A DNA stretch of 23,459 nt from positions 1 to 23,459 of the IMG/VR virus record IMGVR_UViG_3300027365_000062; one strand, 5' to 3'. The translations under genes and the position numbers were made by a program. This document shows, one piece after another, positions 2,779 to 12,678 of the stretch. Origin of the DNA: a virus. The notes below the pieces were generated by a model. That model made no database searches, was not told where the DNA came from, and saw nothing but the letters and a program-made list of their open reading frames with translations. Positions within the stretch are counted from its first letter, which is position 1. Each line of letters starts with the position of its first letter.

Positions 2779-3951
2779 TTACTGAGTGAGTTTATAAAGG
2801 CCAGCAGCCGCAGCGCCAGCCGACGCCAACTGAGACAGCGGCGACAGACCGGTGTTTGCTGTGCCCGTCTGCGTTGTGGTCTGTGGCGTGATCGGGGCCA
2901 TGCCGCGAATCTGAGTGGACAGCCAGTCCAGCGTCTGACGCGGGTAGGCTTGCTCTTCGGCAAACTGCTGGCGAGCTGCATCGATTTCTCGCTGCTGCTG
3001 GCTTTGGTAGGCAGATCCGGACGCTTCGAGAGCGGCGCGATCTTGAGCGTTCATCGCCTGCGATGCCTGCGTGAGCGCACCAAGCTGCTGCTGAGCGGAA
3101 AGCTGCCTATTAATGTCCGTCGATGCAAGCTGGCCCGACATCTGGCCAAGGTTGGCCATCTGCTGCGCCTGTTGCGCGGTGAGGGAGCCGCTTTGTTGCG
3201 CAGCGGTGAGGTAGGCCTGCTGCTGAGCTTGACCCAGGCCACCCGCCGTGGAGGCAAGTTGAGCTTGACGTGATGCGTCCTGTTGTGCAGCGCCCAGGGC
3301 TTGGCCATAGCCTTGCTGCAGAGCCTGCGACTGCTGGCCAAGGATGGACTCTTGAGTGTCGCGCAATGCACGCGAGCCAAACTCACCCATACGCGTGCCG
3401 CCAAACTGCCCGGCCTTGATGAAAGCATCCGAGACACCTGGAAGCAAGTTTTCGCTCAAATTACGGGCACCAAGCCTGGCGATCTGATCCGTCACGTTTT
3501 GCGTGTACGGGTTCATGTAATCTTGAATGCCACCTGCAGCGGATTGGCCAGCCTGCTGCAAGTAAGGCGATGCCGCTTGCAGGCCTCCAGACTCCAAGCC
3601 GCTTTTCATGTACCCCTGCGCCGCCGCCAGAGGATTTGCTTGCGCAGCCTGCTGGATGTAGGGCGATGCCGCCTGCGAAGCGCCCATGCCCGAGGTCAGC
3701 GCACCGGTCTGCGTCATGGCTTGGTTCATCGAAGGAATCCAAGAGCCAACGTCCTCAGCTGTTTTTTTGTAGGCCTGCTCTTGGTAGGGCGTCAGGCCCG
3801 CCACGCGCTCGCCAGAATAGCCCTGGTAGGGCATGTTTGCGATGTTGGCCGAGGACTGGATTTGGCTAAAAATCGCGTCCTGCATCCACTTCGGGGTTTC
3901 GGTTGACGACGTCGTATAAGACGTTGCAGGGGTTCCAGTAAAAAGGCTCAT
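2779..3951 (-). CDS. Gln/Ala-rich internal virion protein (putative)
   Basis: A 390-residue protein dominated by Gln, Ala, Ser and Gly. The start has GTPATSYTTSSTETPKWMQD, then GERVAGLTPYQEQAY near 47-61. Similar segments AASPYIQQAAQANP and AASPYLQQAGQSA recur at about 95 and 125. Residues 205-335 form a long Gln/Ala-rich, presumably helical region (QQQAYLTAAQQSGSLTAQQA). There is no membrane helix or enzyme motif. Proteins of this composition next to nozzle and ejection genes are usually found inside the capsid or the ejected channel. It overlaps the previous gene as ATGA and is followed by a 20-base gap with an AGGAG site for the next gene. Confidence 0.7.
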   Translation of the reverse strand: MSLFTGTPATSYTTSSTETPKWMQDAIFSQIQSSANIANMPYQGYSGERVAGLTPYQEQAYKKTAEDVGSWIPSMNQAMTQTGALTSGMGASQAASPYIQQAAQANPLAAAQGYMKSGLESGGLQAASPYLQQAGQSAAGGIQDYMNPYTQNVTDQIARLGARNLSENLLPGVSDAFIKAGQFGGTRMGEFGSRALRDTQESILGQQSQALQQGYGQALGAAQQDASRQAQLASTAGGLGQAQQQAYLTAAQQSGSLTAQQAQQMANLGQMSGQLASTDINRQLSAQQQLGALTQASQAMNAQDRAALEASGSAYQSQQQREIDAARQQFAEEQAYPRQTLDWLSTQIRGMAPITPQTTTQTGTANTGLSPLSQLASAGAAAAGLYKLTQ

Positions 3952-5774
3952 TTCATGTACTCCTTGATGTACGACAGTGGGGACTTAGCGTTGGGGCTGA
4001 ACTTGCCTTTGGCCAGCGCCTTGCCCTTGTGCGAACGGATTTGTTGGCGCATTTTGTCGAGGCGTTTTGCACCCTCTTTTGTCGAGCCGTCGCCGACAAG
4101 CGCAACAGTCTCCGCGTCCATGACATATTCTCCGTCAGAAAGCCTGGCGTCGATAGTGTCATCGCGCCCGGAGCCGCCGCCTTGTGCAAGGTAGGCCATC
4201 TGGCTTAAAGCCCCCTGACGGCCCATCATGGCCCCGCCACGAGCCTTCTTGACGGGCGATTCCACCGGCTTGAGGTAGTTGTCCATCTTGTTCCAGTTGT
4301 AGGCCACATACGAGCCCAGCGGCTGCCCGGCTGAGGCGGCATCGGCTGTAATCCGGCTCCAGTCCCAGGACTGCAGCGGCTTGCTGAAATAAGCCTGCTG
4401 CTCGGGCGAGAGCGCGTTTTTCACCTGTTCGGGCGTTTTTGCCGCACCAAGCATGCTGGTGAGCGGCAATGCCACGGCTGCTGCCTTGCCCCAATTGAGG
4501 CCGCTTGGTGCCGGGGCAGGGGCTGCGGCCGGAGGCGTGATGCCTGTGCCCATGTCTTGGCCACCATAGCCCAGAGGGGCCACGGGCGCACCGCTTGTGA
4601 GGTCGTAGTTTCCTTTAAAGTCCGTCGGCCCACGGAATCCCACCTCTCCGGTCATGAAATCCGTGGTCTGCAGGCCCGCGTCCGGGATTGGCTGCATGGT
4701 CATTTCGGGCGCTGTCAGGCCCGTCTCGCCGCCACCAAAGCGAGCCCCTGTGCCGCTTGTCGCAGCCTCCGACGGCTTGATCCTGTTGCCGATGTTCGTT
4801 GTCAGGCCCGCCAGCACGGCTCCGGTCAGTGAGGCCTTGGGGTCGTAGCCCGAGGCCATCATGCTGCCAAACTGCTGGCCTCCCGCCTTGAACGCCTCAC
4901 CGCCGACCTGGCCCATTTGACCGCCAATCATCTGGCCGACCGCTCCCTGCATGGCACCCTTGGCGAATCCCTGCCCCGTGGCCGCGCCGGTCACACCGCC
5001 GACAAGGCCGCTGCCCAGCACAGCCTGGCCCGCTTCGCCCAAGCCCAGCCCAAGCGCCGAGTTTGCTGCGCCACCCACAGCGCTGCCAAGACCGCCACCC
5101 ATGCCGCCCATGACCGCGCCTTGCAAGATGTTGCCGCCGCTTAGGCCGGAGCTGACGCCACCAATCACAGCGCCGCCCAGCATTGCTGCCGCCGTACCGC
5201 TTGCGCCCAGGGCCGCGCCAATTGCAGTGCCCAAGCCGGGCGCAACGAATGACAGCACGATGGGCAAGATTGGAGCAATCGCCTTGAACGCCTTTTTCAA
5301 GCTGCTGCCCAGGCCGTACTCGGGCATGCCGGTGCGTGGGTTGATCGAGCCAGCGCCGCCGTGGGCACGCAGCAGGCGGTCCTCAAACGGCGTGATGTGC
5401 GCCAGGCGTGTGTCGCCACGGCGACCAGCTTTGGCAATCGCATTCAAGCCGCCCCTGGCAAAACCTGCGGGCACTTGCTGCGGGGCCGACATGCGCTGCT
5501 TGACGATCTTGAGGGCCAGCAAGGCAGCGGCCAGGAAGGCGGGGTCGAACTGCTCCGGAATATCCTCGGGGTCCATGACGCCGCTGGCAATTGCCGAGCT
5601 GCGCATGTCCGAATATGCCTCCGGGTTTTGAAGCGTGAACTCAAAGGCGCTGATCAGCTTGTCAATCGCCTGTAAATTGACATCTGGGTCAGCGGAAAGC
5701 TCAGCGGCAATCTCATCGACCGCCGACTGAAGCTCCGGATTTGACTGCAGTTGTTGCATCAAGTCATCATTCAT
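3948..5774 (-). CDS. Large internal/ejected virion protein with Gly-Ala hydrophobic core
   Basis: A 608-residue protein counted from the ATG at 5774, which overlaps the previous stop as ATGA; the extension to 5891 is a shadow. The N-terminal 100 residues are acidic and helical. GAGSINPRTGMPEYGL near 140-155 is a motif I associate with internal virion proteins. Residues about 160-300 are very rich in Gly, Ala and Met with hydrophobic stretches (PILPIVLSFVAPGLGTAIG), which could insert into or cross membranes during DNA entry. The end carries ARLSDGEYVMDAETV and a Lys-rich tail (HKGKALAKGKFSPNAKS) conserved among environmental phages, from memory. No lytic transglycosylase motif is visible. The ejection role is inferred. 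Confidence 0.75.
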   Translation of the reverse strand: MNDDLMQQLQSNPELQSAVDEIAAELSADPDVNLQAIDKLISAFEFTLQNPEAYSDMRSSAIASGVMDPEDIPEQFDPAFLAAALLALKIVKQRMSAPQQVPAGFARGGLNAIAKAGRRGDTRLAHITPFEDRLLRAHGGAGSINPRTGMPEYGLGSSLKKAFKAIAPILPIVLSFVAPGLGTAIGAALGASGTAAAMLGGAVIGGVSSGLSGGNILQGAVMGGMGGGLGSAVGGAANSALGLGLGEAGQAVLGSGLVGGVTGAATGQGFAKGAMQGAVGQMIGGQMGQVGGEAFKAGGQQFGSMMASGYDPKASLTGAVLAGLTTNIGNRIKPSEAATSGTGARFGGGETGLTAPEMTMQPIPDAGLQTTDFMTGEVGFRGPTDFKGNYDLTSGAPVAPLGYGGQDMGTGITPPAAAPAPAPSGLNWGKAAAVALPLTSMLGAAKTPEQVKNALSPEQQAYFSKPLQSWDWSRITADAASAGQPLGSYVAYNWNKMDNYLKPVESPVKKARGGAMMGRQGALSQMAYLAQGGGSGRDDTIDARLSDGEYVMDAETVALVGDGSTKEGAKRLDKMRQQIRSHKGKALAKGKFSPNAKSPLSYIKEYMK

Positions 5775-5998
5775 GTCAGTGCTCCAACAAGCCTCTCGGC
5801 CCATTCTTTCCAGTTTGTGAATTGGTAAGGAATCGGAAGATTCCGGCCAATCGTGGTGTTGTTCAAAAACTGCATCCCCCAATCCTGCCAAAGATCAGGA
5901 TTGTCAAGTCGCCCAAATGCGCCATACGGGTCCAGGTCAAGCACCAATTGAGCCGCCCAATCGGTCAGCTCCATATTGGTTGGCATCGTGATCATCAT
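5771..5998 (-). CDS. Small conserved phage protein, unknown function
   Basis: A 75-residue protein rich in Trp, Asp, Asn and Leu (WAAQLVLDLDPYGAFGRLD, WQDWGMQFLNNTTIGRNLP). There is no membrane segment. Tandem ATGATG codons at 5998-5993 offer two starts, both overlapping the nozzle stop; the stop overlaps the next start as ATGA. I do not recognise a family. The pattern of spaced Trp and Pro residues in a helical context suggests a small structural or chaperone-like protein that acts with the nozzle or the large protein encoded next. Confidence 0.7.
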   Translation of the reverse strand: MMITMPTNMELTDWAAQLVLDLDPYGAFGRLDNPDLWQDWGMQFLNNTTIGRNLPIPYQFTNWKEWAERLVGALT

Positions 5999-7515
5999 CC
6001 CAGCACCGTCCTGTCGCCTGTTTCCATGTGGCCAATGATCTGGCCCATCTGGTAGTCGCCATACAAAGCGTTGGACTCAAAGCGCACGCGCAACTCACGG
6101 CGCTGCTCTTTGAGCATCACGATCTGCTCGAACGGCTGATCGGCTTGCTCCGGGAACGTGAATGTGGAGCTGACCACCTCGGGCGCTCTTGCGTTTGCGC
6201 GACCTGTGACCTGCACGGTCATTGGTCCGTTTTGCACAAAATCCGGCTCGATGGTCGAGATTCGAAGATAGCTGTCCTGGCCCTGAGCAATTGAGGACAA
6301 GTCGGCCGTTTCAAAAAATGACTGGATTGGAGCCGCCAGCGTGCCATCGATTTCGTCCACGCCCTGCTCATGCACCCAGGTGCGGTAACCGCTGGGAGAA
6401 GGAATGGCATCGACCAAGATGGGCGACATGAAGGCGTTGTTGTAGCCCCCAGCAGATCGGCCAGAGGTAGGCAGTGCGGTGTCGTACCAAGTGTTCTCGC
6501 GCACGTTGTAGATCACCGCGTGCGTGCATTCGGTGGCGTCACCCCTGGGGTACGCCCACCAGATTTCGCCAAAGCGCGGAACCTTCCAGGAGAACACTTT
6601 GCTGTGCTGGCTTGGGTTCAGGCCGTCCAAGAAGTAGTTGATGTTCATCTGGTTTGGCACATCGCGCACCACGCCGTTGAACATCAAAAACCGATCAACG
6701 CCAGCCCAATAAAAAACGCCGTCGTAATCCACGACAGAGTCTGCCGACATGATCGAGGTGTCGGTGGCGATCACGTCAAACTGGAACACGGTCGCACCAC
6801 CGCTGAACGTGGCACGAATCACCGCATCGTAGGCCCAGAAGATGCCAGCAGGCGCAGAGCCCGAGCCCGCGCGAAGGGGCATGCCCTTGATGATCTTTTG
6901 GCCCCACACGCGAGCTATGCCGGACCCGCTACCCGTCAGGTCTGAAGGCTCTCCAGGCACGGACCAGCCGATGATGCCTGCGGTGCCGTAGTAAAACAGG
7001 TAGGGGTGCAGCGCCACGATGCCGCCCGTGGCGTTGGCACCTGCGGGCAATGTGACCTCCGTCAAAGCAGCGGTGCCCAAAATGTTGCCATAGAAAATTT
7101 GGCCACCCACATCGTTGCACAGGCACGAGCCGTTGGGGGCCACGTGCGCAAGCAAGGCGTTGTAGGTGGTCGAGCTTTCATAGATCGACTGAAACATCCA
7201 GCGGTTGTTAACCGAGTCCACCAACGTAGATGGCGTGCGGTCCGAAATGATGCTGGAGTTTTTGTTGGCATCAATCGTGAACCGCTCCAACGTGCTGGAG
7301 CCGCCGCTGTGGCAATATTGCAACAGTTGCTGCGTGAAGCTGTTGAAGCCGCGCGAAATCTCGGTGAGGTATTTTGAAATCGAGCGATACCCGCCAATCT
7401 TGCGAGGCAGGCCGCGTTGGAAACGAACCCACTGGCCGTCAACGTAGAAGTCGCCCTCAAACTTGGTGCCGTCGCGTTTGATGCCCGGCTGTGATCGCAG
7501 GATTTGTGTTGGCAT
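5995..7515 (-). CDS. Tail nozzle / packaged-DNA stabilisation protein (P22 gp10-like)
   Basis: A 506-residue protein resembling P22 gp10 and related nozzle proteins. The start (PTQILRSQPGIKRDGTKFEG) and QWVRFQRGLPRKIGGYRS near 27-45 are characteristic of the family. The centre contains repeated aromatic beta-blade-like segments (YDGVFYWAGVDRFLMFNG near 263-280, VFSWKVPRFGEIWWAYPRG near 305-325, HAVIYNVRENTWYD near 331-345), consistent with a beta-propeller-like domain. The end (ELRVRFESNALYGDYQMGQI) is also typical. By family knowledge six copies close the tail channel and hold packaged DNA. It follows the adaptor and a fibre gene, as expected for a short-tailed virion, and is overlapped by the next gene as ATGA. 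Confidence 0.85.
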   Translation of the reverse strand: MPTQILRSQPGIKRDGTKFEGDFYVDGQWVRFQRGLPRKIGGYRSISKYLTEISRGFNSFTQQLLQYCHSGGSSTLERFTIDANKNSSIISDRTPSTLVDSVNNRWMFQSIYESSTTYNALLAHVAPNGSCLCNDVGGQIFYGNILGTAALTEVTLPAGANATGGIVALHPYLFYYGTAGIIGWSVPGEPSDLTGSGSGIARVWGQKIIKGMPLRAGSGSAPAGIFWAYDAVIRATFSGGATVFQFDVIATDTSIMSADSVVDYDGVFYWAGVDRFLMFNGVVRDVPNQMNINYFLDGLNPSQHSKVFSWKVPRFGEIWWAYPRGDATECTHAVIYNVRENTWYDTALPTSGRSAGGYNNAFMSPILVDAIPSPSGYRTWVHEQGVDEIDGTLAAPIQSFFETADLSSIAQGQDSYLRISTIEPDFVQNGPMTVQVTGRANARAPEVVSSTFTFPEQADQPFEQIVMLKEQRRELRVRFESNALYGDYQMGQIIGHMETGDRTVLG

Positions 7516-9453: not shown

Positions 9454-9969
9454 TTAACTCAGGAACAGAGAAATCTCGGCTTCACGGCGTTTGACCAGCC
9501 CGGGGAGAACCTTGCCGCCGCCCTTGGTCCAAGCCCGGAACGCCTCGGCTGCGCCAGCCCAATCGCCCCGGTTGGCCTTCATGCGGATGGTGCTGCGCTG
9601 GAGGTTGCCTAAACCGAAGTTAAAGGAAATGCTGACCAGAGCGTCAAAGCTGCCTTGACGCCCAACCACGCCGGGAACAAGACGAAGAACACCCCGTTCA
9701 AAATTTCCGACATCAACTCGGAATAGTTCGTCGATCTCCTCTTTTGTCCAGACACGGTTGTCCTCCGGTTTCAGTGGGAACTCACTGCGGATCATGGGGA
9801 TGTCCTCTTTGGTCTTGCCCGGTGGCCGGACCATGGGGAGCCTGATCTGCTCTTGGTACAAGACGTGGCCGTAGCCAATCGTCCAGATGTGCGCCGGGCA
9901 AAGGTAGGGCCGAGAGCGCTTGCCCTCGAACCGGTGCATCAGGTCTTCACCTGCCTTGCTCAGTTTCAC
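9454..9969 (-). CDS. GH24 lysozyme (endolysin, T4-type muramidase)
   Basis: A 171-residue protein with the phage lysozyme signature: Glu15 in HRFEGKRSRPYLCPAHIWT, then TIGYGH at 30-35. Comparing with T4 lysozyme (Glu11, Asp20, Thr26), the matching residues are Glu15, Cys24 and Thr30, so the catalytic Asp is replaced by Cys. T4 D20C is reported to keep activity, so the enzyme is probably functional. It would cut peptidoglycan between MurNAc and GlcNAc. The start is a GTG overlapping the holin stop (GTGA); the next ATG (Met11) would remove part of the first helix. No signal peptide or SAR helix is present, so holin-dependent export is expected. An insertion near 50-70 lengthens the usual lobe loop. 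Confidence 0.93.
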   Translation of the reverse strand: MKLSKAGEDLMHRFEGKRSRPYLCPAHIWTIGYGHVLYQEQIRLPMVRPPGKTKEDIPMIRSEFPLKPEDNRVWTKEEIDELFRVDVGNFERGVLRLVPGVVGRQGSFDALVSISFNFGLGNLQRSTIRMKANRGDWAGAAEAFRAWTKGGGKVLPGLVKRREAEISLFLS

Positions 9970-10469
9970 TTCTTGCTCCAGCCGCGAGAGCCAAACCAGA
10001 AACCGATGATGCCGCCCAGCATGGCCATTTCGTCAGCACTGAAAATCAGGTCGGCGTACTTGATGACGTCATCAATGCTGGTGATCAGGCCGGGGTGATT
10101 CCACAGATACCAGGCCATGAATCCGTTGATCAAAACCAGCTCAAGGACAAAAATGTAGGTCACCGTAGGGCGCACAGTGCCCACGTAGTTGGAAACCCAT
10201 GTGGAAGCCTTCTCAAGCACCTTCTCGTCGTGCGAGAGCGCCGCCTCAGTCATTCGGGCGTCAGTCTCCATCTGGACTTGATCGGTGCGGACCTCTTCGA
10301 TCTTCAGTTGGGCAGCGAAGCCCTGCGCGGCCATAGCCAGCTCGCGCTCGTTCTGCAGCGCCGCCAGCCGAAGCTCGTGCGCTTGGTCGGCCTTGTTCTG
10401 GAAGAACTCCAGCAGCTTCGGGAGACCGGAGATCAGCAGACCCCCAAGAGTTGAGAAAAGTGAAAGCAT
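9966..10469 (-). CDS. Putative holin (3-TM, GTA-holin-like)
   Basis: A 167-residue protein counted from the ATG at 10469; a TTG three bases further upstream is possible but less likely. It has a hydrophobic N-terminal segment (LGGLLISGLPKLLEFF), a charged Ala/Glu-rich helix (about 28-90) and two membrane helices at about 103-123 (TYIFVLELVLINGFMAWYL) and 143-160. This layout, with the TVRPTVTY stretch before the second helix, resembles the 3-TM holins of gene-transfer agents and related phages. It lies directly upstream of the lysozyme and overlaps its start as GTGA. By family role it would open the inner membrane to release the lysozyme, which lacks a signal peptide. Confidence 0.7.
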   Translation of the reverse strand: MLSLFSTLGGLLISGLPKLLEFFQNKADQAHELRLAALQNERELAMAAQGFAAQLKIEEVRTDQVQMETDARMTEAALSHDEKVLEKASTWVSNYVGTVRPTVTYIFVLELVLINGFMAWYLWNHPGLITSIDDVIKYADLIFSADEMAMLGGIIGFWFGSRGWSKK

Positions 10470-11086
10470 CAATTACCCCTTTTGGTTAGCATGGCGCTGG
10501 CAATCTCCAGCATGAATTTTACTTGTTCAAGGTTTTCTGGCTCCTGCGGCCAGCCGACCGTAACCTGCCCCACAAACCTGTGGCTGTCCGGTGGAACGCT
10601 CACCCGGCAGGTGAAGCCCACGCCCTTCTCGATGTACCACAGACCTACCTCGGACTGAGCGTAGCGGTACTCGCTGCAGGGAATATCGTTGGTCATCAGC
10701 TTGATGACGTCGTTGTTGTTGGCGGTGTTCTGGCTGAACAAACCCACGTCAATGTCTTCAATGGTCTTGTCCCTGCCGTCCTTCGTGTAGGCCTTGTACA
10801 GCACCCGGCTGTTGAACAGGGGGTTGACCTTAAACACGGCCACCACCGTGGCACCTGTCTTTTTGAGCAGCATGGCGCTGGCGTCGTCCGCACGGTCGGT
10901 GTTGATCTCGGGGAGCTTCTTGGACTCCTTGTAGGCGTCCATCATGAAGGTTTGGTTTTGCCACAGGAAGTAGCCAGCGAAGGCCACCACGCCCATGAGC
11001 AAAATGGCAAACAGCTTGAACGGCGAGTCCACATACCCGAGCACTTTGTCGAGGGTGGTGTTGGCGTTTAGCTTCTCGTCGCTCAT
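10469..11086 (-). CDS. Inner-membrane protein with periplasmic domain, unknown function
   Basis: A 205-residue protein with a short polar N-terminus, one membrane helix at about 24-42 (KLFAILLMGVVAFAGYFLW) and a long C-terminal domain of about 160 residues that would lie in the periplasm. The domain holds two Cys at 137 and 160 that could form a disulfide there. No family is recognised. The layout (N-terminal anchor and periplasmic domain) is what an i-spanin or a lysis inhibitor such as T4 RI or T would show, but no coiled coil typical of Rz is seen. It overlaps the previous gene by ATGA and the holin candidate by TGATG. Confidence 0.75.
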   Translation of the reverse strand: MSDEKLNANTTLDKVLGYVDSPFKLFAILLMGVVAFAGYFLWQNQTFMMDAYKESKKLPEINTDRADDASAMLLKKTGATVVAVFKVNPLFNSRVLYKAYTKDGRDKTIEDIDVGLFSQNTANNNDVIKLMTNDIPCSEYRYAQSEVGLWYIEKGVGFTCRVSVPPDSHRFVGQVTVGWPQEPENLEQVKFMLEIASAMLTKRGN

Positions 11087-11529
11087 CGCAGGTGCTTCAT
11101 GTAGATGACAAAACCGCCGACCATCAGGCCAGCCAAGACAATAGTCGCCATGCCGATGGCGATGTACTCGGCCATCTTTTCAAGGTCTTCCTTGCGCTTC
11201 TTGGCCTCACGGGCTGCAGCCTCTTTGGCCTCTCTGCGCTTGCGTGCCGCTGCGGCTTGGAAATTCTGCCAGTCACCCCACATGCCCGGGCGACCTGCGT
11301 AGACCATGCGCTCGCGCAAATCTTCTTCCTGCTGCCGGAGCTGCTCCAGCGCCATAAACTCTTCGAGGTCAGAGCCGCCGCCCTTTTTATTGGCTTTTTC
11401 CTGAATCTTGGCTTTGTTGTCGAAGTAATCAAAGACCCGCGAGCCGAGCTGGTGTAGCTCTTTACCGTTGGCCAGCGCACCTTTTATTACTGCAAAGGCC
11501 GCATTGGCGGCGGCGATTTCGGCAAGCAT
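11083..11529 (-). CDS. Coiled-coil protein with C-terminal membrane anchor
   Basis: A 148-residue protein with an Ala-rich N-terminal helix (1-30), a Lys-rich linker around KKGGGSD (48-54), a strongly charged Ala/Arg/Lys/Glu coiled coil at about 85-118, and one membrane helix at 122-144 (IAIGMATIVLAGLMVGGFVIY) ending in MKHLR. The C-terminal tail anchor puts the bulk in the cytoplasm, the reverse of an i-spanin. Such proteins are seen beside lysis genes in environmental phages, from memory, without a known role. It starts right after the 32-residue gene and overlaps the next gene by ATGA. Confidence 0.75.
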   Translation of the reverse strand: MLAEIAAANAAFAVIKGALANGKELHQLGSRVFDYFDNKAKIQEKANKKGGGSDLEEFMALEQLRQQEEDLRERMVYAGRPGMWGDWQNFQAAAARKRREAKEAAAREAKKRKEDLEKMAEYIAIGMATIVLAGLMVGGFVIYMKHLR

Positions 11530-11628
11530 TTACAGCCTCCATACAAACGGCAAAATTATGCTTGTGGACCAAACAACAAACCCAATCAAAAGGGCCGCTG
11601 CAATGAATGCAACAGCCCAATCTCTCAT
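11530..11628 (-). CDS. 32-residue single-helix membrane protein
   Basis: A tiny open frame starting at the ATG at 11628, overlapping the lipoprotein stop as ATGA, and ending with TAA directly before the next ATG (TAAATG). It codes for 32 residues with an N-terminal MRDW, a hydrophobic stretch at residues 5-29 (VAFIAAALLIGFVVW within it) and an Arg near the end. Without this gene there would be an unexplained 96-base gap in a cassette that is otherwise gapless. Single-helix proteins of this size in lysis regions may be holin-like, antiholin-like or lysis-timing proteins; none of these is shown here. Confidence 0.65.
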   Translation of the reverse strand: MRDWAVAFIAAALLIGFVVWSTSIILPFVWRL

Positions 11629-12218
11629 GGCACCGTAGTGGTGTTTGTTGTGGTCACGGTATCCGTGCTGGTCACCACAGTTGGAGTAGCCGTATTGTCA
11701 GTAATACCGCCACCAGCAAGGCGACCACTGTTGCCAGAGTTTGACCCACTGTTTGCTCCAATCGAGTAAGAACCCGCACCGATCACGCCTGTGCCGCTCA
11801 AGGTCACGTTGGCCGCTGGTGCTTGAATCTGCGATGCGATGCCCACGAACGCTGCGTTGGTACTGATGCCCAAAGCTGTCGCGTTGTCAGACTGACGCAT
11901 ACCCAAGCTGGTCTGCTTGTTGATTGTGTACACCTGCCCTATGGTTGGCAGGAGCAAACCAGTCCACTGCATGGCGTAATCGGCCCAGTTCTTGGGGGCG
12001 GCAATCTGCGTGTTCTGCTGACCGCCACCCATCTGCAGTGACATGACCGCAGCAACCTTGGCCGTGGTGTCACCTTGCTTGGCGATGTCTGCCAGAGCTT
12101 GATAACGGGCTGTTTGGGCCGCTGCTTGAGCTTTGTGGGCATCGGCATAGGCTTGGTACTCTTTTGTCGCGCAGCCTGTCAGGGCCACGGAGCAGACGGC
12201 AAGGGCAAGTAGTTTCAT
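11625..12218 (-). CDS. Phage lipoprotein of unknown function
   Basis: A 197-residue predicted lipoprotein. Starting at the ATG at 12218 gives a clear signal peptide (MKLLALAVCSVALTGC) with lipobox LTGC and Cys16 as the lipidated residue. The upstream extension to 12488 is a shadow of the two previous genes. After Cys16 come an Ala/Gln-rich helix (about 20-60), a central region, and a Gly/Ser/Asn/Thr-rich tail from about 150. Lying between the fibre block and the lysozyme, it could act as an outer-membrane part of lysis (o-spanin-like) or as a superinfection-exclusion lipoprotein; it is longer than, and not Pro-rich like, classical Rz1. It overlaps both neighbours by four bases (ATGA). Confidence 0.75.
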   Translation of the reverse strand: MKLLALAVCSVALTGCATKEYQAYADAHKAQAAAQTARYQALADIAKQGDTTAKVAAVMSLQMGGGQQNTQIAAPKNWADYAMQWTGLLLPTIGQVYTINKQTSLGMRQSDNATALGISTNAAFVGIASQIQAPAANVTLSGTGVIGAGSYSIGANSGSNSGNSGRLAGGGITDNTATPTVVTSTDTVTTTNTTTVP

Positions 12219-12376
12219 TTTGGCTCCACGGCCTCTTGAGGCACAGCGACTTGTGGGGACACTTGCTCTTGCAGGGCTTGGATGATCTGGAACACTTCGC
12301 CATAGGGGCGAGTGCCGAGGTAACCCAAGATGCCTTGCATCAGGCTGAGTTTGACTGTGACGTCTTGATCGTTCAT
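12215..12376 (-). CDS. Small 53-residue phage protein
   Basis: A short gene coding for 53 residues, beginning MNDQDVTVKLSLMQGILGYL and ending with AVPQEAVEPK. It is bounded by ATGA overlaps on both sides (12373-12376 and 12215-12218), which strongly supports it being real. The sequence suggests one amphipathic helix pair (residues 8-38) with a Gln/Pro-rich tail and no membrane segment. A similar short protein occurs after fibre genes in other environmental phages, from memory, without known function. It opens the run of overlapping genes that leads to the holin and lysozyme. Confidence 0.7.
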   Translation of the reverse strand: MNDQDVTVKLSLMQGILGYLGTRPYGEVFQIIQALQEQVSPQVAVPQEAVEPK

Positions 12377-12678
12377 GTTGCGCTCCAAGGAAGGCCGGAC
12401 TCTTGTACGGGGTTGATCTGTGCGTCAATTTGGCTTTGCAAGCTGGCTTCAACAGTGTCTTTGCCAAGCGAGTTTTGCACCCAGCCAACCACCTGTGCTT
12501 CGGTCAATTGGTCGTAGGGGATGAATGTCTCACCGGGCTGCTCTTGGTAGCCCACAGTGCCGTAGGTATTGGCGCTGTATGTGCCATCAGTGGCAGACAC
12601 GTTGTAATGCACTGTGACCACGAAACCATCAGAGGTTAGGCGATCCATTTGCGAGATTGTCCAGAGGTAGGTTGTCAT
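12373..12678 (-). CDS. DUF7936-like phage protein
   Basis: A 101-residue soluble protein with the pattern TYLWTISQMDRLTSDGFVV at the start, YSANTYGTVGY in the middle, and PYDQLTEAQVVGWVQNSLG followed by an INPVQESGLPW end. From memory this matches a widespread phage family annotated as DUF7936, found beside fibre genes. The N-terminal half is beta-like and the C-terminal half helical. The function is unknown; its position after the two fibres suggests a fibre-assembly or baseplate-related role. The ATG has AAGGAA eight bases upstream, and the stop overlaps the next start as ATGA. Confidence 0.8.
   Translation of the reverse strand: MTTYLWTISQMDRLTSDGFVVTVHYNVSATDGTYSANTYGTVGYQEQPGETFIPYDQLTEAQVVGWVQNSLGKDTVEASLQSQIDAQINPVQESGLPWSAT

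Follow-up and report, generated by a model that had tools for sequence, protein, structure and literature searches.

The 23,459-base virus record IMGVR_UViG_3300027365_000062, analyzed over its whole length (the window), contains a genuine phage lysis cassette that holds undescribed membrane proteins. The new element in it is g6, a protein with a pair of cysteines, which is a candidate T-like holin and would form, together with its neighbour g5, a constant control unit. We consider it somewhat probable that a T-like holin and lysis-control unit, g4-g5-g6, drives an exchangeable holin-endolysin pair, g7-g8.

Organization of the gene cluster

Genes g1 to g8 run from position 12678 to 9454 on the minus strand (Table 1). 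As described in the original prediction, all seven junctions between these open reading frames (ORFs) are overlaps or direct abutments. The g1/g2, g2/g3, g3/g4 and g5/g6 junctions are 4-base ATGA overlaps, TAA is followed directly by ATG at g4/g5, g6 and g7 meet in TGATG, and g7 and g8 in GTGA. If the alternative TTG start of g7 at 10472 is used, the g6/g7 junction becomes a TTGA overlap instead. The members named in that prediction (lipoprotein, one-helix protein, tail-anchored coiled coil, Cys-pair protein, holin candidate and lysozyme) are all present. The gene arrangement is real, but the eight genes do not make up one conserved cassette, g1-g3 being variable neighbours. For g2, no Pfam or PHROG match was found, and no tblastn match among the 80 related loci described below. 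In related loci the DUF7936 gene co-occurs with an S74 tail fibre gene and is inconsistently associated with g5-g6; g1 is a tail fibre neighbour and probably not a lysis gene.

Table 1. Genes of the cassette in the window, with their predicted products and database matches.
Gene	Position	Strand	Length (aa)	Product	Match
g1	12373..12678	-	101	DUF7936 protein	PF25590, E 2.2e-32 (Pfam)
g2	12215..12376	-	53	soluble protein, between DUF7936 gene and lipoprotein gene	
g3	11625..12218	-	197	lipoprotein, LTGC lipobox; optional gene	
g4	11530..11628	-	32	membrane microprotein, one helix	
g5	11083..11529	-	148	tail-anchored cytoplasmic coiled coil; constant partner of g6	
g6	10469..11086	-	205	T4-T-like holin candidate	phrog_31287, E 3.7e-22
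g7	9966..10469	-	167	membrane protein in holin slot	phrog_6637, E 2.3e-13
g8	9454..9969	-	171	phage lysozyme endolysin	PF00959, E 2e-34; phrog_7, E 6e-46

Conservation of g5-g6 and exchange of the holin-endolysin pair

A scan of IMG/VR with g6 located 471 related places, and the best 80 of the 471 were compared. These 80 loci are the closest matches and include several near-duplicates, so that counts made on them are not independent. A tblastn search with the g5 of the window gave a match in every one of the 80 loci except L061, which carries a more distant g5 (35%); the match in L058 is only 31%, and in three loci it covers g5 only partly, the contig end being reached. The 4-base overlap of g5 and g6 recurs in 75 of the 77 related loci where it could be measured. 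Microproteins of about 30 aa resembling g4 are encoded directly upstream of g5 in 46 of the 80 loci, and also in L086. Recurrence of the overlap, presence of g4 relatives and purifying selection on g6 (see below) together indicate that the arrangement is not due to chance.

In each of the 74 branch A loci that extend far enough downstream, g6 (with g5 upstream) precedes a holin-slot gene, which in turn precedes an endolysin gene. The slot is occupied by members of PHROG 6637, 1544 or 3427, and the endolysins belong to four families: lysozyme, GH108, GH19 and M15. The PHROG 6637 gene is always found with lysozyme (21/21); the other two holins are combined variously with endolysins of three families. 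Since g5-g6 is kept while both the holin and the endolysin families are swapped, what is conserved is g4/g5-g6-(holin)-(endolysin), with g5-g6 constant and the holin-endolysin pair exchangeable. Across the 80 loci, co-conservation of the cassette genes thus holds for g5-g6 with a holin and an endolysin and fails for g1-g3.

Selection on g6 was estimated from the 80 sequences: median pS was 0.60, pN 0.07 and dN/dS about 0.06. Choosing the closest matches inflates g6 protein identity and does not account for the high pS. These values point to old divergence under strong purifying constraint and not to mere recent copying.

Additional genes were seen in some loci. In L019 (5012-5490) and L027 (4600-5080) a gene for an extra membrane protein with two hydrophobic helices lies between g6 and g7. 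Many loci (L002:5248-5472, L065:5251-5466 and similar) encode, upstream of g5, a protein of about 60-75 aa in which a single helix is combined with a coiled coil, an XhlA-like layout.

The prediction of g7 as a holin candidate agrees with its position: in other loci the same slot is held by annotated holins (phrog_3427, with a PF11351 match in L002). The g7 of the window itself gave no match to PF11351 (GTA_holin_3TM) in Pfam; its relative in L088 reaches PF11351 above the cut-off with an E-value of 1.6e-5. Both PHROG 6637 (g7) and PHROG 31287 (g6) are families without assigned function. The endolysin g8 has no signal or anchor helix, and in addition to its Phage_lysozyme match (Table 1) has the catalytic pattern E-8aa-(D/C)-5aa-T, read from the sequence as FEGKRSRPYLCPAHIWT.

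Predicted fold of g6 and comparison with T4 holin T

The original prediction listed the Cys-pair protein and missed its T-holin-like character. C137 and C160 are the only cysteines of g6, and they are invariant even in relatives with 22-33% identity. An AlphaFold2 model of g6 made with 24 homologues (pLDDT 81.5) comprises a short helix, a membrane helix at residues 22-43 and a globular alpha/beta domain. Its predicted topology is that of a T holin: one membrane helix near a cytoplasmic N-terminus, followed by a large domain in the periplasm. Long N-terminal tails rich in Lys and Arg are found on the g6-family members of a sister branch, whose identity to g6 is about 33%.

When the model was compared with PDB by Foldseek, it matched the periplasmic domain of T4 holin T (6psk_T, from the structure of this domain complexed with antiholin RI) with an E-value of 1.9e-5 and a target-normalised TM-score (TMt) of 0.72, the highest TMt among the 50 matches listed. 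Phytochrome GAF domains gave comparable E-values and lower TMt. The periplasmic domain of g6 is predicted to be GAF-like, and its likeness to T is at the level of the fold only, GAF domains matching as well. In BFVD there were 31 matches to the g6 model below 1e-3, among them three annotated phage holins, from Proteus phages phiP4-3 and Stubb and Serratia phage PS2. Two uncharacterised jumbo phage proteins, H6X3V2 (RaK2) and K4F9M1 (GAP32), also match the model in fold in BFVD; T and RI have been stated to be absent from RaK2 (PMC3622015).

Alignment of the g6 family with the T family by hhalign covered 172 columns, with a probability of 72% and an E-value of 3.3e-5. In a control with the T periplasmic columns shuffled the score was kept (mean 39.9 versus 39.0), so the sequence signal shared by g6 and T is confined to the N-terminal anchor region. 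The control ruled this match out as proof of homology, leaving a similarity of the anchor region, and no sequence homology across the periplasmic domain was detected by it. PF11031 (Pfam) matched neither the g6 of the window nor five relatives, T4 T itself giving 1.5e-118. No meaningful match was returned by PDB sequence searches with g6 and a g6 profile, no prophages were found in genome contigs searched with g6, and no GAF-like T holin came up in a literature search. T4 T likewise has two conserved cysteines, C175 and C207, at positions other than those of C137 and C160, and C207, near the C-terminus of T, has no counterpart in g6. Because the sequence signal is limited to the anchor and Pfam does not place g6 in PF11031, we do not claim membership in the T family and propose g6 as a candidate with a T-like way of working.

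Candidate partner genes

The model of g5 is all-helical and of low confidence, too uncertain to serve for a fold search. Relatives of g5 adjoin holin or endolysin genes in L086, L219, L220 and L221, where the stretches read contain no g6; either holin may therefore be the target of g5. This occurrence of g5 without g6 in other phages speaks against a T-like control unit. In L219 (Roseobacter phage CRP-403), a CHAP enzyme with C-terminal hydrophobic helices is encoded at 5394-6026, directly after the g5 relative.

In the sister branch, an ORF of about 90 aa adjoins g6 in 34-35 of the 36 loci counted, usually with a 4-base overlap. Its product has an N-terminal signal peptide and two invariant cysteines. 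The family lies directly after g6 in L175-L208 (for example, L191:5651-5932). Searches of Pfam, PHROG and PDB returned no match for it, and comparison with T4 RI showed no similarity in sequence. Where the sister branch has this secreted ORF, branch A has g5; the secreted gene was not found in branch A, including seven contigs that were read further (G008 over its first 60 kb). It is known that RI binds the periplasmic part of T and RIII the cytoplasmic part (PMC8385771). The secreted protein of the sister branch is a candidate RI-like antiholin. L191 has a pair of different g6-family genes near each other (3553-4158 and 4902-5654), and so does L193 as judged by tblastn.

Relatives of g6 in other phages and its possible roles

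In Edwardsiella phage GF-2 the g6 relative, gp77, is located between a Q-like gene and the endolysin gene, which is followed by Rz. In Vibrio phage IKEMa6-1 the order is g6 relative, endolysin, Rz, with an Rz1-like lipoprotein frame inside Rz, as read from the translations. The g6 relative thus fills the holin slot before endolysin-Rz in both phages, and the g6-lysozyme-Rz order was found in seven IMG/VR viruses, GF-2 included. A g6 relative is also present in Straboviridae S13 and Ci1, and PHROG 31287 includes both GF-2 gp77 and the Cronobacter S13 protein. PF11031 (T) was not detected in S13 or Ci1 and was positive in four comparison phages (two Straboviridae and two Demerecviridae). Between the tail fibre gene and asiA, the position of t in T4, S13 has only a 72-aa ORF. 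A search of viral contigs for relatives of the S13 protein found none.

As a separate holin, g7, is present in the window, g6 need not be the hole-former. It could instead be a dedicated regulator, an antiholin or a signal sensor, that inhibits or releases g7 as the true holin, with g5 as an accessory. Such a role is consistent with the holin-slot gene in every complete branch A locus, with the constant pairing of 6637-family g7 and lysozyme, as would fit a g7-g8 execution pair, and with the predicted fold, which is a typical sensor fold. However, no g7 was found in GF-2 and its relatives, GF-2 is also without g5, and g6 alone precedes a soluble endolysin there; moreover, S13 and Ci1 carry the g6 relative where T was not found. 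We therefore regard a purely regulatory g6 as rather doubtful.

A role outside lysis, in which g5-g6 would be a superinfection-exclusion or other host-takeover membrane unit merely riding in the late lysis operon, appears unlikely. In Straboviridae and in contigs of very large size, the g6 relatives do lie away from any obvious lysis gene cluster, and a host target could explain the strong conservation. Against this, g6 adjoins holin or endolysin genes in branch A, in most of branch B and in the GF-2 group, and holin T is the closest solved fold by TMt among the matches listed.

Lipoprotein g3 and the lack of recognisable spanins

We agree with the earlier observation that the cassette has no recognisable Rz/Rz1. 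A lipobox scan of the window identified g3 as the sole lipobox ORF. Its relatives are present in three of the 80 loci (L003, L059 and L071), and none were found in cultured phages. When the coding strand of each of the 80 loci was scanned strictly for lipoboxes, no locus other than these three yielded a lipoprotein. A search of 30 related records with PF03245 gave no match over the cut-off and a single sub-threshold match, in a GF-2-type record. The 55.9-kb contig G015, probably complete in view of its terminal repeat of 80 bases or more, keeps g4-g5-g6; its two lipobox candidates are doubtful and lie far from the cassette. These scans found no conserved o-spanin lipoprotein accompanied by an i-spanin. 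As no spanins were found in 91 of 677 surveyed phages (PMC6139136), their absence is not very unusual.

The non-classical spanin of the original prediction, in which g3 with g6 or g5 would fuse the inner and outer membranes, could draw on the single lipobox ORF, the i-spanin-like type II topology of g6 and the PF03245 result, but it was rejected on the conservation of g3 and the predicted fold of g6, which is globular with no coiled coil, and is most improbable given also that G015 keeps g4-g5-g6 with no convincing lipoprotein and that classical Rz stands alongside a g6 relative in GF-2.

Proposed mechanism and comparison with known systems

The lysis-timing set suggested in the original prediction is supported in outline and is the best reading of g5-g6. 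In the proposed T-like control of lysis, the execution layer would consist of g7, a multi-helix holin, and g8, a cytoplasmic lysozyme, swapped among phages, and the control layer of g5-g6, often with g4. Anchored N-in by one helix, g6 would accumulate in the inner membrane like T4 holin T, and its GAF-like periplasmic domain would receive or transmit the signal that sets the time of hole formation. It may cause lysis by itself; alternatively, it may gate g7 or assemble together with it. We infer that g5, tethered to the membrane on the cytoplasmic side, would regulate either g6 or the holin, in place of a cytoplasmic antiholin like T4 RIII; in the sister branch, the secreted protein may occupy the RI-like periplasmic place.

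To our knowledge, it is mainly in T4 that lysis regulated by holin T and antiholins has been worked out in detail. More tentatively, g6 and its partners (g5 here, the RI-like secreted protein in the sister branch) might be a widespread and so far undescribed lysis-control system of the T/RI type. Hundreds of environmental phages would then carry it as a constant module for timing lysis, perhaps including lysis inhibition, to which holin-endolysin pairs are attached interchangeably. If PHROG 31287 proteins are T-like holins, then lysis timing by periplasmic sensing extends beyond T4-like and T5-like phages and is common in environmental phages, it operates alongside a second holin, with inheritance separate from that of the holin-endolysin pair, and an abundant family without a function gains a name.

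Like two-component Rz/Rz1 spanins, the cassette combines a lipoprotein gene with that of a type II membrane protein in a single operon; unlike in those systems, the lipoprotein g3 is not conserved, g6 has no coiled coil, and Rz coexists with a g6 relative in GF-2. Holins of GTA_holin_3TM (PF11351) and PHROG 3427 occupy the same slot as g7 and have a similar length and C-terminal helices, whereas the window's g7 is a PHROG 6637 member, and PF11351 is reached only by a relative of it. In PHROG 31287, of which g6 is a member directly by sequence, the GF-2 protein comes without g5 or g7 and with Rz. Compared with the T4 partners of T, g5 would act on the same side as cytoplasmic RIII but is membrane-anchored, and the sister-branch ORF resembles RI, a small secreted periplasmic protein, in size, export and position but not in sequence. 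Unlike T4 holin T, a class III holin (PF11031), g6 has no Pfam match, has its second cysteine elsewhere, and clusters with a second holin and g5 and not beside tail fibre gene 38 and asiA. It is like T in size (205 versus 218 aa), in the number of conserved cysteines (two, at other positions), in one N-terminal membrane helix with a cytoplasmic N-terminus, in the predicted periplasmic fold and, in the sister branch, in having the gene of a small, putative periplasmic partner beside it.
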